This document shows positions 1-46,925 of a stretch of 64,000 bases of DNA, in pieces. The notes beneath the pieces are model-generated. The model was not told where the DNA came from and made no database searches. It saw only the letters and a program-made list of their open reading frames with translations. The position numbers and the translations under genes were made by a program. The DNA is taken from contig NZ_CP139286.1 in assembly GCF_034067285.1 (NCBI RefSeq), positions 1,488,001-1,552,000 of the forward strand, read 5' to 3'. Each line of letters begins with the position of its first letter. Within the stretch, counting starts at the first letter, position 1. Origin of the DNA: Acinetobacter pittii. Lineage in GTDB: Bacteria > Pseudomonadota > Gammaproteobacteria > Pseudomonadales > Moraxellaceae.

Positions 1-896
1 TCAAGGTCAATTAAAAGCAACCCCACACTTGTTTGGGTGTCTTTTGAGTAGGTGAGGGTACGTTTAAGTTGAAATTTAAATGAGCGCCGATTACATAAAC
101 CAGTCAGCTCATCTCTCTCACTCATATTCCTGAGCTGGTTTTCTGCCAAATGTTGTTGGGTAACATTACGTGAGACACAAAGTATTTGTCCAATTTCACC
201 ATTTTCCCGATGAATCGGGGTAAGCATATTATCCCAATATTCAGGGTTTTGATTGGGTAAACAGCTCATCCCTGCAAATCGAGCAACCTTTCCTTGAAGA
301 GCTTTTTTTAAAGCAACGCGCCCACGCTTACGAATATGAGGTGGCAATAACTCAAGCCATTTCATTCCAAATTCTGTTTCGTCAACAGGGATACCTAAAG
401 CGAGGCATCCTGATTTATTCATATGAGAAACTGTGCCATCTACATTAAGTACTTTAATGCAATCCTCACTGATGTCTAACATTTGATTTTGTATTTCAAT
501 ATTCTTCTGCAAGTTTTGTTGTTCTTGGATATCATGATCAATATCTAAAAAGCTAACATACCATTCGTTAACTTGAGATGGGCCGTGATACTTAGATGCT
601 TGAATAGAGAGTTTGCACCATCTATATTGATTTCCAACTTGGAGAAGTCGACATTTTAATTCTATTCTTTTTTGAAGGCGAATTGCTTCGAGCCATCTAT
701 TTTTGACTTCATCTAAATCAGCAGGATATATAAAATCTAACCATTGCTCTGGCAATGGAGAAAAAGTATCCAACCAATATTCTGTACACTCTACATTGCA
801 ATATAATATCAAGCCATTTTCATCACTTACCCAAGTTGGTAGTGGAATTTGCTCAACAATAAAATGCTTTTGGGTAGTGTTCGACATTGAAGTCAT
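1..896 (-). CDS. PAS-PAS-GGDEF signalling protein (C-terminus cut by window edge)
   Basis: The reverse strand is open without a stop from an ATG at 896 to base 1, giving 298 codons of an incomplete protein. Residues about 10-125 and 130-245 look like two PAS sensor domains (WVSDENGLILYCN and CIKVLNVDGTVSHMNKS segments, each ending in a short linker helix). The third domain starts at about residue 252 with SERDELTGLCNRRSF, the usual N-terminal signature of a GGDEF diguanylate cyclase domain. The GGDEF active-site loop and any EAL domain lie outside the window, so cyclase versus phosphodiesterase activity cannot be judged. A weak AGG stands 6 bases before ATG 896; ATG 887 is an alternative start. 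Role inferred: cytoplasmic or membrane-associated c-di-GMP signalling. Confidence 0.85.
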   Translation of the reverse strand, partial: MTSMSNTTQKHFIVEQIPLPTWVSDENGLILYCNVECTEYWLDTFSPLPEQWLDFIYPADLDEVKNRWLEAIRLQKRIELKCRLLQVGNQYRWCKLSIQASKYHGPSQVNEWYVSFLDIDHDIQEQQNLQKNIEIQNQMLDISEDCIKVLNVDGTVSHMNKSGCLALGIPVDETEFGMKWLELLPPHIRKRGRVALKKALQGKVARFAGMSCLPNQNPEYWDNMLTPIHRENGEIGQILCVSRNVTQQHLAENQLRNMSERDELTGLCNRRSFKFQLKRTLTYSKDTQTSVGLLLIDL

Positions 897-45084: not shown

Positions 45085-45447
45085 ATGTTAATTGATAGTC
45101 TTGCTATAACCCGAATACTGAGTGTATTCGGGTTATTTATTATCACAGCAATTGCTGAAATTCTGGGTTGTTATTTTCCTTATCTGATTTTAAAAGAAGG
45201 TAAGTCAGCTTGGTTGTGGATACCTACAGCTTTAAGTCTAGCTATCTTCGTATGGCTGCTGACCCTACATCCAGCAGCTTCTGGGCGCATTTATGCTGCA
45301 TATGGCGGTATCTATATTTTTACTGCGCTCATGTGGTTACGCTTTGTTGATCAGGTCGGTTTAACCAGATGGGATCTATTAGGTGGTCTAATTGTGCTTT
45401 GTGGAGCGAGCTTAATTATTTTGCAGCCTCAAGGATTGATTCGCTAA
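45085..45447 (+). CDS. YnfA/UPF0060 family membrane protein
   Basis: A 120-residue protein with four membrane helices. It contains the strongly conserved [20 protein letters not shown] and [10 protein letters not shown] of the YnfA family, small drug/metabolite-type transporters. It begins 3 bases after clpA. Compared with E. coli YnfA it has about 12 extra N-terminal residues, and a perfect 13-bp hairpin lies in exactly that extra part of the gene. Confidence 0.88.
45106..45136 (+). terminator. Strong hairpin inside the start of ynfA, downstream of clpA
   Basis: Perfect 13-bp stem ATAACCCGAATAC (45106-45118) / GTATTCGGGTTAT (45124-45136), loop TGAGT, then TTATTAT. It falls 25 bases after the clpA stop and within the first 18 codons of ynfA. 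It may attenuate clpSA read-through into ynfA; the T tract is imperfect. Confidence 0.5.
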
Positions 45448-45503: not shown

Positions 45504-45532
45504 TTGTCAAACTCATCAACAATGCGTATTTT
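45504..45532 (+). promoter_or_regulatory. Promoter of the DAHP synthase leader
   Basis: TTGTCA (45504-45509), 17-base spacer, TATTTT (45527-45532). The transcript would start near 45539, about 30 bases before the first leader peptide and 330 bases before the structural gene. Confidence 0.65.
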
Positions 45533-45568
45533 AGATTTAAGGAACATTTTTTAATATTTGAGATAAAG

Positions 45569-45625
45569 ATGTTAAATCTATCTGTGAACACTAACGCTTA
45601 CTATTACTTTTGGCAATTTAGATAG
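45569..45625 (+). CDS. Aromatic leader peptide 1 (attenuator peptide)
   Basis: ATG 45569 to TAG 45623-45625 encodes 18 residues, MLNLSVNTNAYYYFWQFR. Codons 11-15 are Tyr-Tyr-Tyr-Phe-Trp and codon 17 is Phe, so six of 18 residues are aromatic, matching the end products of the pathway encoded downstream. A GAGA lies about 5 bases before the ATG. The Trp-Gln codons contain GGCAA, which pairs with TTGCC just after the stop, as expected for segment 1 of an attenuator. The reading is direct; the role is inferred from the classical trp and phe leaders. Confidence 0.85.
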   Translation: MLNLSVNTNAYYYFWQFR

Positions 45626-45703
45626 TTGCCTGAGCGTATTCGGGCATGAGAAAGTTGCCCATCACAGTTAATACCTGATCGGCAACCCCGATCAGGTTTT
45701 TTT
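45612..45703 (+). promoter_or_regulatory. Transcription attenuator of the DAHP synthase gene
   Basis: Mutually exclusive pairings: A:B GGCAA (45612-45616) with TTGCC (45626-45630); B:C TGCCTGA (45627-45633) with TCGGGCA (45640-45646), one G-T; C:D GGGCA (45642-45646) with TGCCC (45656-45660); D:T GTTGCC (45654-45659) with GGCAAC (45681-45686), which opens the terminator. With the ribosome stalled at Tyr/Phe/Trp codons, B:C and D:T can form and transcription continues. When the peptide is completed, C:D and the terminator form. Confidence 0.8.
45674..45703 (+). terminator. Attenuator terminator
   Basis: Perfect 9-bp stem CCTGATCGG (45674-45682) / CCGATCAGG (45688-45696), loop CAACC, then seven T. 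It lies between the first and second leader peptides, upstream of the DAHP synthase gene on the same strand. Confidence 0.92.
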
Positions 45704-45736
45704 ATGCTTTATCTTTTTTGAATCGAGGAACTTAAA

Positions 45737-45829
45737 ATGAAAAACATGACTTATTCGTACTTTAGCAACTTTTATTGGTTTTACTTTTGCTTACCTTTAC
45801 CAACGAATAGATCCAAAACGCTCAAATAA
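45737..45829 (+). CDS. Aromatic leader peptide 2
   Basis: ATG 45737 to TAA 45827-45829 encodes 30 residues. Residues 6-17 read YSYFSNFYWFYF, nine of twelve aromatic, all three aromatic amino acids present. A clear GAGG (45725-45728) lies 8 bases before the ATG. It begins after the attenuator terminator, so it is translated only on read-through transcripts. Its Tyr13-Trp14-Phe15 codons (45773-45782) are complementary to 45863-45872, which covers the start codon of the DAHP synthase. The sequence is seen directly; a role in translational control is inference. Confidence 0.8.
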   Translation: MKNMTYSYFSNFYWFYFCLPLPTNRSKTLK

Positions 45830-45835
45830 ATGATC

Positions 45836-45856
45836 GGACTGAGTAGATTGCAGTCC
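45836..45856 (+). promoter_or_regulatory. Hairpin before the DAHP synthase ribosome site
   Basis: GGACTG (45836-45841) / CAGTCC (45851-45856), 9-base loop, ending 1 base before AAGGA (45858-45862). No T tract, so not a terminator. It may present or hide the ribosome site depending on ribosome position on leader peptide 2. Confidence 0.5.
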
Positions 45857-45869
45857 CAAGGAAAAACCA

Positions 45870-46925
45870 ATGAATGCCCTAAATACTTTACTGACTCAAA
45901 CCAATACAAAAGAAACACCAGTTAGTTTACCTATACAGTTAAAAGCGAAATATCCGCTTGCACACACTTTCGCACGTCAAATTGCCGAACACCGTCAAAT
46001 TATTCAAAATATTCTTAACGGCAAAGATCATCGTCTAATGGTAATTACAGGGCCTTGTTCAATTCATGATCCAGTCGCGGTACTTGAATACGCTGAAAAA
46101 CTGCAAAAACTACAAGAAAAAATAAAAGATCAAATTTTTATCGTAATGCGCACATACATTGAAAAGCCACGCACAACTGTGGGCTGGAAGGGTTTCATGT
46201 ATGATCCAAATTTAGATGGTTCATCAAATTTACAACTTGGTTTAGAAAAGTCTCGTGAACTGTACCTACAAATTATTGAAAAAGGTTTGCCAATTGCGAG
46301 TGAAATTTTAAGCCCAATGGCAACTGGGTATTTTGATGATTTATTGGCTTGGGGGGCAATTGGTGCTCGTACCAGTGAGTCTCAGATTCACCGTGAGATC
46401 TCAAGTCATATGCCATACAGTATTGGTTTTAAGAATGGCACTGATGGTTCTATTCAGATTGCATTAGATGCGATTCAGTCAGCACAAAATGAACATCAAT
46501 TTTTAGGTATGAACCAACAAGGCTTGCCTTCAGTGATTCAGAGTGCTGGCAACCCATTACCGCACTTGATCTTGCGTGGAGCAAATCATGGTCCAAACTA
46601 TGATTTAGCTTCAATTCAGGCGATAGGCGAAAAGTACAAACAAAATCTACCTGCACTGGTGATAGATTGTAGTCATGGTAATAGTGGCAAAGATCCGTTG
46701 CGTCAGCCGGAAGTATTACAGCAAATCGTTGCTGAACGTTTAAAAACACAAGTTAGAGGGGTCATGATTGAAAGTCATTTGGTTGATGGTAATCAAAAGA
46801 TTTCTTGTGAGATGACTTATGGCCAGTCAGTAACCGATGGTTGCTTAGGGTGGGAAAAAACAGAGCAACTTTTGTTAAGTGTATCTGAGCAATTAAAAGC
46901 AAAAGTGTTAGCCCATTCCGCTTAA
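45870..46925 (+). CDS. aroG: 3-deoxy-7-phosphoheptulonate (DAHP) synthase, type I
   Basis: First enzyme of the shikimate pathway, joining PEP and erythrose 4-phosphate. The 351 residues match the AroF/G/H family: VITGPCSIHDPVAVLEYA, RTYIEKPRTTVGWKGFMYDP (PEP/E4P site), GARTSESQIHRE, GFKNGTDG, LRGANHGPNY and DCSHGNSGKD with metal and substrate residues. Which of the three isozymes (Tyr-, Phe- or Trp-inhibited) it corresponds to cannot be read by eye, so the symbol is approximate. Regulated by the two-part leader upstream. AAGGA is 7 bases before the ATG. Confidence 0.92.
   Translation: MNALNTLLTQTNTKETPVSLPIQLKAKYPLAHTFARQIAEHRQIIQNILNGKDHRLMVITGPCSIHDPVAVLEYAEKLQKLQEKIKDQIFIVMRTYIEKPRTTVGWKGFMYDPNLDGSSNLQLGLEKSRELYLQIIEKGLPIASEILSPMATGYFDDLLAWGAIGARTSESQIHREISSHMPYSIGFKNGTDGSIQIALDAIQSAQNEHQFLGMNQQGLPSVIQSAGNPLPHLILRGANHGPNYDLASIQAIGEKYKQNLPALVIDCSHGNSGKDPLRQPEVLQQIVAERLKTQVRGVMIESHLVDGNQKISCEMTYGQSVTDGCLGWEKTEQLLLSVSEQLKAKVLAHSA

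Follow-up and report, generated by a model that had tools for sequence, protein, structure and literature searches.

The trpL and pheL leaders of Escherichia coli are transcription attenuators. Both are described in the available part of PMC11802643, and the locus reported here resembles them in that a short leader ORF contains the regulatory codons, the RNA can pair in alternative ways and an intrinsic terminator precedes the gene; it differs from them in that three aromatic residues are represented in one leader, in that there are five segments rather than four, and in that the gene encodes the pathway entry enzyme and is preceded by a second leader ORF. An attenuator of a DAHP synthase gene, aroR-aroF of Corynebacterium glutamicum, is also on record (Neshat 2014 as cited in PMC11802643; also PMC4046766). 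As far as the accessible parts of those papers go, it too has a leader peptide (Phe-Tyr-Phe) before the DAHP synthase gene, but it is a single leader that acts on transcription, the run described has no Trp, and the organism is unrelated.

Uncharged tRNA is read at both transcription and translation, the latter through a leader peptide, in the anti-TRAP system; the anti-TRAP (rtpA) leader peptide is reportedly the subject of work by Chen and Yanofsky in 2004. The Bacillus subtilis anti-TRAP leader consists of a T-box and a leader peptide (PMC11255114 and PMC4027176, in the portions available). Our locus would share with it the reading of uncharged tRNA at both levels, with the translation step carried out by a leader peptide; in anti-TRAP, however, the first step is a T-box, the second responds to Trp alone, and what is controlled is a regulator and not an enzyme. 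Finally, ermB has two leader peptides (PMC8274638, in the portion available) and is comparable in its two leader ORFs and in translational attenuation by ribosome stalling, but its signal is an antibiotic and a terminator step does not figure in that portion of the description.

We find that the DAHP synthase gene of an Acinetobacter genome lies behind a real, conserved, two-leader control region. We put at about two in three the probability that this is a two-checkpoint leader, in which the supply of aromatic aminoacyl-tRNA would be read twice on one mRNA, at transcription and then at translation. Judged from its sequence, the first step would be attenuation of the trp type exerted on the enzyme that opens the pathway, and is known in kind; as far as our searches of the open-access literature show, neither the second step nor the arrangement of both in series has been described for genes of amino acid synthesis, with anti-TRAP and the two-leader erm systems being the nearest cases.

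The DAHP synthase gene and leader 1

The window (the whole stretch of 64,000 nucleotides that was analysed) is part of an Acinetobacter genome of 3.69 Mb, and the DAHP synthase encoded here shares 99% identity with the A. pittii ANC 4050 enzyme. The first-pass annotation of this DNA had named DAHP synthase as the product of the regulated gene, and this is borne out by the NCBIfam models NF009395 and TIGR00034 (aroFGH), both of which score over cut-off. The same genome carries a second DAHP synthase paralogue (49% identical; locus L002), upstream of which the aromatic-ORF filter found no leader ORF. DAHP synthase of the window's type was found at E 1e-110 in 169 of 175 Acinetobacter genomes. 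Six of the 175 are without it at that threshold, among them G148 (one contig, 2.4 Mb), whose single match scores like the other paralogue. In a family sample of 119 genomes all matches better than 1e-105 were from Acinetobacter; the other Moraxellaceae reached 2.8e-104 at best with one match each, like the second paralogue. Some distance upstream, downstream of clpA, a 13-bp terminator-like hairpin (45106-45136) lies within the first codons of a YnfA-family ORF; it is either a clpA terminator overlapping the start of the YnfA-family gene or chance. We examined 130 Acinetobacter upstream regions. The gene and the parts of leader 1 in the window are as follows.

45504 to 45532, + strand: promoter TTGTCA-17-TATTTT
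45569 to 45625, + strand: leader ORF 1, MLNLSVNTNAYYYFWQFR and stop codon
45612 to 45616, + strand: segment A, GGCAA, within the Trp-Gln codons (segment alignment and folding)
45626 to 45633, + strand: segment B, TTGCCTGA, directly 3' of the stop codon (segment alignment and folding)
45639 to 45646, + strand: segment C, TTCGGGCA (two-sided changes in B:C)
45654 to 45659, + strand: segment D, GTTGCC (segment alignment and folding)
45681 to 45686, + strand: segment E, GGCAAC, in the top of the terminator stem and its loop; antiterminator partner of D
45673 to 45703, + strand: intrinsic terminator, stem and T run (two-sided changes in the stem)
45870 to 46925, + strand: DAHP synthase gene (TIGR00034 aroFGH, NF009395)

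Both the promoter and the 18-codon peptide with its Tyr-Tyr-Tyr-Phe-Trp run had been pointed out in the first-pass annotation, and both recur throughout the genus. In 130/130 Acinetobacter loci a loose promoter element (TTGNNA-16..18-TANNNT) precedes the Phe-Trp-Gln codons by no more than 140 nt, with TTGTCA in 116 and TATTTT in 80 of them; a promoter scan of the region gave 5 promoter-like sites against 7.5 in shuffles, so the match by itself carries no meaning. The aromatic run of ORF 1 is found in all 130 upstream regions (AYFYFWQ in 44, AYYYFWQ in 31, ATYYFWQ in 12, others in the rest), and near the end of the ORF the distinct single-base codon variants are biased toward synonymous ones (6 synonymous and 6 not, where 12.7% synonymous would be expected). 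The terminator, put earlier at a 9-bp stem with seven T, is present with a 10-bp stem (45673-45697) followed by six more T. Segment D can indeed pair with GGCAAC (segment E), but E does not close the terminator as had been thought: it has only GG in common with the terminator 5' arm, and its remainder belongs to the loop. When the window's own sequence is folded, pairing of ATCA with TGAT lengthens the D:E helix, which makes D:E and the terminator mutually exclusive there.

In an alignment of 106 distinct Acinetobacter sequences (L046 and L057 were left out), the leader-1 helices are paired in 98.6-99.8% of cells. Compensating two-sided changes were seen at 2 of 7 pairs of B:C (9 cells) and at 3 of 10 pairs of the terminator (5 cells); A:B, C:D and D:E are nearly invariant and so give no covariation signal either way. 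The paired fraction exceeded all 300 column shuffles for B:C and the terminator only, in a comparison where the shuffles ignore relatedness. The aromatic codons, the terminator and the competing segments are thus kept genus-wide, and the loss of codons or stems among relatives that would have spoken against attenuation was not what we found.

We folded both the nascent RNA, which ends before the terminator 3' arm, and the full RNA, with the ribosome placed by its A-site codon. In the nascent RNA, a ribosome with its A-site at codons 11-15 (Tyr-Tyr-Tyr-Phe-Trp) covers A, and B:C stands at 0.96-0.97 and D:E at 0.99-1.0; at this stage B:C formed in dependence on a stall at these codons. In the full RNA, C:D is at 0.98 with no ribosome or with the ribosome at codon 17 or 19, and B:C is at 0.94-0.95 with the A-site at codons 11-12; the outcome is mixed at codons 13-15, where B:C is 0.37-0.65. 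Before the terminator 3' arm exists, D:E is preferred over C:D in every state tried (at least 0.87), and in the full RNA at equilibrium the terminator is preferred in every ribosome state tried (at least 0.98); between D:E and the terminator, equilibrium folding gives no separation by ribosome state. Since the terminator wins in all of these states at equilibrium, the decision would have to be kinetic, by folding order. In other attenuators the choice is likewise set by the order of folding.

We envisage that a ribosome stalled at the Tyr-Tyr-Tyr-Phe-Trp codons of ORF 1 would cover A, allowing B to pair with C; D would then be free for E, and the terminator would fail. A ribosome at the ORF 1 stop would instead cover B, C:D would pair, and transcription would end near 45703. 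By sequence, leader 1 resembles transcription attenuators of the trp type, and as such it would control termination. The earlier recognition of trp and phe attenuation logic at the pathway entry enzyme is supported by the kept codons, terminator and competing segments; that account stood for leader 1 but stopped at 45703, and it missed the second leader ORF and the hairpin that lie at 45737-45856.

Leader 2 in Acinetobacter and its relatives

Between the terminator and the DAHP synthase gene there is a second aromatic-rich ORF, and the features of this part of the window are the following.

45725 to 45730, + strand: probable Shine-Dalgarno sequence of leader ORF 2, GAGGAA (read from sequence)
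45737 to 45829, + strand: leader ORF 2, MKNMTYSYFSNFYWFYFCLPLPTNRSKTLK and stop codon
45771 to 45787, + strand: Phe-Tyr-Trp-Phe-Tyr-Phe codons, predicted to be able to pair with the DAHP synthase start region
45836 to 45856, + strand: hairpin GGACTG/CAGTCC, between the ORF 2 stop and the Shine-Dalgarno sequence
45858 to 45874, + strand: translation start region of DAHP synthase, AAGGAAAAACCAATGAA, with which these codons are predicted to pair (folding)

ORF 2 is intact in 129 of the 130 Acinetobacter regions (a looser recount accepts 130/130; we have kept 129 as the figure). In the locus L039 (genome G142) it is apparently frameshifted, with leader 1 and the hairpin present, and this could be a natural variant or a sequencing error. 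Folding and codon counts were made on 125 Acinetobacter loci, leaving out L057, L039, L092, L119 and L131; ORF 2 is present in L057, L092, L119 (divergent) and L131, though these stand outside the 125-locus set. The 125 parsed peptides have 7-13 aromatic residues, and in an unanchored count Trp is within the aromatic cluster in 123 of them (TGG-anchored counts make Trp invariant by construction). The ORF 2 of A. baylyi (L034, genome G007) reads ...SNVDYFYF..., its cluster being free of Trp codons. In Acinetobacter, of 38 distinct variants that differ by a single base in codons near the Trp, 12 are synonymous, against 11.9% expected, an excess that suggests translation. The leader peptides had no NCBIfam match. 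Fusion or frameshifting of ORF 2 into DAHP synthase was considered and dropped; the spacing to the start differs between species.

In a class-wide sample of 369 genomes, one genome other than our own matched the DAHP synthase at E 1e-108 (L157, 54% identity), and its upstream region has both leaders in the same order. Among 148 Pseudomonadaceae genomes searched, 112 had a match and 90 upstream regions were examined: leader 1 (...YFYGYWFS... and similar) is in all 90, and leader 2 (...YYRNSDWRFS...RTLR, then stop, and similar) was parsed in 88. These 88 are the leader-2 set of that family, with L211 (an aromatic ORF without Trp) and L228 (ORF 2 found, start region unparsed) left out. Near the Trp codon of ORF 2 the Pseudomonadaceae show no synonymous excess (7/35 versus 19.2% expected). 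The terminator loop CGGCAACCC and the ORF 2 tail AACRCTCARATAR are alike in some members of both genera, and this likeness of sequence suggests that the Acinetobacter and Pseudomonas leaders may be of common descent. Five divergent Acinetobacter loci (L145-L149) keep leader 1; at the position of ORF 2, L145-L148 have an aromatic-rich frame and L149 a longer one, read by eye. In an order-level search 35 of 194 genomes matched at E 1e-112, and 22 upstream regions were scanned. Leader 1 was seen in other Pseudomonadales families as well, and leader 2 in some only: by eye, L317 and L331 have leader 1 without a second leader, and the aromatic-ORF filter found no second leader in L330, L332-L334 and L338. 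Leader 2 has thus been gained or lost at least once.

It might be argued that leader 1 alone is regulatory and that ORF 2 has no control role, being either a relic or a gene for a small conserved protein; transcription-only control is the usual form of attenuation, and ORF 2 is preceded by a Shine-Dalgarno-like sequence of its own and keeps its C-terminus conserved. We consider this unlikely, although slightly less so than the other alternatives weighed below. The aromatic richness and position of ORF 2 are kept in two families despite sequence divergence, and several of its codons are nearly fixed. CGA and TTT are rare codons in Pseudomonas, and at the Trp site each is found in 85/88 loci. 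In the last codons of the Acinetobacter ORF 2 the third position before the penultimate codon is G in 124/125, and the penultimate codon is CTC in 110/125, CTC being the rarest Leu codon in three window genes. Near-fixation of this kind points to RNA rather than protein.

The ORF 2 tail in the window (45820-45829, GCTCAAATAA) shows constraint at the nucleotide level and resembles the Pseudomonas tail CGAACACTCAGATAG. We found neither a pairing partner nor a role for it, and it is without a role in the two-checkpoint model. Its pairing with the hairpin or with the Shine-Dalgarno sequence was looked for by eye and by folding and rejected, RNAalifold on 124 distinct Acinetobacter sequences giving a short hairpin only; its pairing with the start region was likewise discarded, being weaker than permuted in both genera. 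ORF 2 could also be a TnaC-like arrest peptide, in which the conserved C-terminus would sense free aromatic amino acids at the stop. The tails ...TLK in Acinetobacter and RTLR or RTPR in Pseudomonas are common and the stop codon follows them immediately, but the spacing from Trp to tail varies by several residues and the constraint on the tail includes the third codon position, and we regard such an arrest as improbable.

The hairpin that follows ORF 2 is conserved as GGACT...AGTCC in 114/125 Acinetobacter loci, and in its own genome the hairpin-plus-Shine-Dalgarno pattern occurs in this copy only. A stem of at least 6 bp is present in 103/125 Acinetobacter loci, compared with 15% of shuffles, and after ORF 2 in 65/88 Pseudomonadaceae loci, compared with 37% of shuffles. 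Stems of at least 5 bp are more widespread (124/125 and 85/88) and are weak evidence, because 44% and 73% of shuffled regions, respectively, have one.

Predicted pairing of leader 2 with the DAHP synthase start

When example leaders of both genera were folded, the start region of DAHP synthase was found in a helix with the aromatic codons of ORF 2. For the window, the fold has TTTATTGGTTTT-A-CTTT (45771-45787) pairing with AAGG-AAAACCAATGAA (45858-45874) at -13.6 kcal/mol; 2 of 28 other window start regions pair as well or better with the same ORF 2 codons. The start region of the window, from Shine-Dalgarno to ATG, is unpaired at 0.11 with no ribosome and at 0.10 with a ribosome at the ORF 2 stop. 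With the ribosome at codons 6 and 8 the values are 0.11 and 0.13, at codon 9 the value is 0.36, and with the ribosome stalled at codons 12-17 it is 0.71-0.73. The difference in openness between the Trp-stalled and at-stop states is above 0.1 in 91 and below -0.1 in 5 of 125 Acinetobacter loci, and above 0.1 in 40 and below -0.1 in 2 of 88 Pseudomonadaceae loci. This shift lies above spacer-shuffled nulls in 85/125 and 65/88, respectively; the part of it that survives spacer shuffling is 0.13 of 0.21 in Acinetobacter and 0.006 of 0.106 in Pseudomonas.

We propose that, once the whole message has been made, the ORF 2 codons for Phe-Tyr-Trp-Phe-Tyr-Phe would pair with the DAHP synthase Shine-Dalgarno sequence and start codon, the hairpin between the two strands closing the loop. 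A ribosome stalled on these aromatic codons would break the pairing and DAHP synthase would be translated, and a ribosome running on to the ORF 2 stop would let the pairing re-form. The coupling might have the opposite sign, if a ribosome that finishes ORF 2 opened the hairpin or re-initiated, such that aromatic shortage would lower translation. In both genera the longest stem begins a median of 6 nt after the ORF 2 stop, so that a terminating ribosome would cover its 5' arm, and only 2 nt separate this stop from the start of DAHP synthase in L326 and L327; but coupling of that sign would oppose checkpoint 1, and the start region is predicted by folding to be less open when a ribosome sits at the stop. 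We give such positive coupling little credence and prefer masking of the start by the leader-2 codons.

Comparison among Pseudomonas leaders argues for this masking. The best-pairing ORF 2 window starts between -15 and 0 from the Trp codon in 63/86 loci, and the mean pairing is -12.7 kcal/mol at -3, versus -3.6 to -8.5 outside -12 to 0; the reversed control gives -8.7 at -3. Cognate pairs of codons and start regions beat permuted ones (p 0.0006 with 44, p 0.0042 with 31 representatives), and two control segments put through the same permutation were not better than permuted. Relatedness inflates all such permutation tests, and it was after thinning to the 31 representatives that p remained 0.0042. 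Codons and start regions are thus co-adapted across Pseudomonas (p 0.0006-0.004), which is a further point against ORF 2 being simply a small protein gene or relic.

The corresponding signal in Acinetobacter is smaller. Cognate combinations hardly outdo permuted ones (p 0.05, 0.13 and 0.15), and an N-terminal control segment does about equally well (p 0.12, 0.10 and 0.14). A permutation with a wider window had given 13/2000 in Acinetobacter and 0/2000 in Pseudomonadaceae; when the window was narrowed and representatives were used, the Acinetobacter signal fell to p 0.05-0.15, and it is the weaker result that we use. RNAalifold on 124 Acinetobacter sequences returned a short hairpin only, the codon-start region pairing being absent. 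Reversing the start region leaves its pairing with the U-rich codons equally strong, and the mean longest pairing run is 7.04 versus 7.23 for 28 other window genes; these values, together with the shift that survives shuffling, indicate that A- and U-rich composition explains much of the pairing in this genus. CCAA, which complements the Trp codon and its neighbour, lies just upstream of the start in 39/83 distinct Acinetobacter sequences versus 2/28 control genes, and CCA is upstream of the start in 31/60 Pseudomonadaceae. Pairing of the ORF 2 Shine-Dalgarno region with that of DAHP synthase, a second and lower peak in Acinetobacter only, was set aside as a candidate.

Pairing at divergent loci was assessed for 14, of which 3 (L322, L325 and L149) were unscored, no start having been obtained. 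In L324, L326 and L327, which have leader 2, the Arg-Phe-Ser codons beside Trp are within the best pairing to the start region; in L319, L320 and L328 they are outside it. In the divergent L145 and L148, and in L319 and L320 of another family, the start region pairs best with a segment other than the aromatic codons.

The pairing mechanism has good comparative support in Pseudomonas and folding support in the window, and for the genus Acinetobacter it is extrapolated from these. On the folding models leader 2 is most likely a translational attenuator, and which amino acids would matter to either leader is suggested by their codons.

Rfam family P15 and the meaning of the two leaders

Leader 1 of the orthologous Pseudomonas locus coincides with Rfam family RF00627, 'Pseudomonas sRNA P15': the model matched L166, L180 and L183 (E 7.2e-19 or better), and it reached gathering score in 19 of 20 further Pseudomonas loci, L246 being the exception. 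Of 274 genomes in the class sample, 1 has P15 over cut-off and 4 have it at E 0.001. The Acinetobacter leader differs in being unmatched by the P15 model, which found nothing in L001 and L090 up to E 5; no Rfam family, P15 included, reached gathering score in the window, and P15 had no match in our own and 4 further genomes, where the controls were silent too.

Rfam types P15 as a gene. In the parts of the literature accessible to us, its function is called unknown (PMC5627042), its synteny is taken as a hint of a riboswitch (PMC2527527), and it was picked for over-expression as a putative sRNA in 2026 (PMC13086519). By layout P15 shows itself to be, as far as sequence can tell, a leader ORF followed by a terminator, both upstream of the DAHP synthase gene, and this coincidence makes its annotation as a stand-alone sRNA gene look wrong or incomplete. 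We found no paper in the open-access literature that describes P15 as a DAHP synthase leader. The terminated leader 1 RNA might in addition act in trans as a small RNA, in keeping with its cataloguing and over-expression as such (PMC13086519, in part) and with peTrpL of Sinorhizobium, a leader product that acts in trans according to the available part of PMC7298713; the leader ORF and terminator, however, already account for the conserved parts noted, and we think a trans role unlikely.

Taken a step further, the two-checkpoint leader may be ancient in the Pseudomonadales, with the sensing codons of leader 2 serving as the very strand that masks the start site and with P15 being the aborted transcript of checkpoint 1; we incline somewhat toward this fuller account, with the odds a little better than even. 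If it is true, an orphan Rfam 'sRNA' that a 2026 paper still over-expressed as a candidate regulator would have a function, and a serial leader that acts on transcription and then on translation would be added to the known attenuators. The design of the second step, in which sensor codons and anti-start strand would be one and the same, makes a sharp prediction that is testable by swap mutations. It would also show how two major genera adjust entry into the shikimate pathway.
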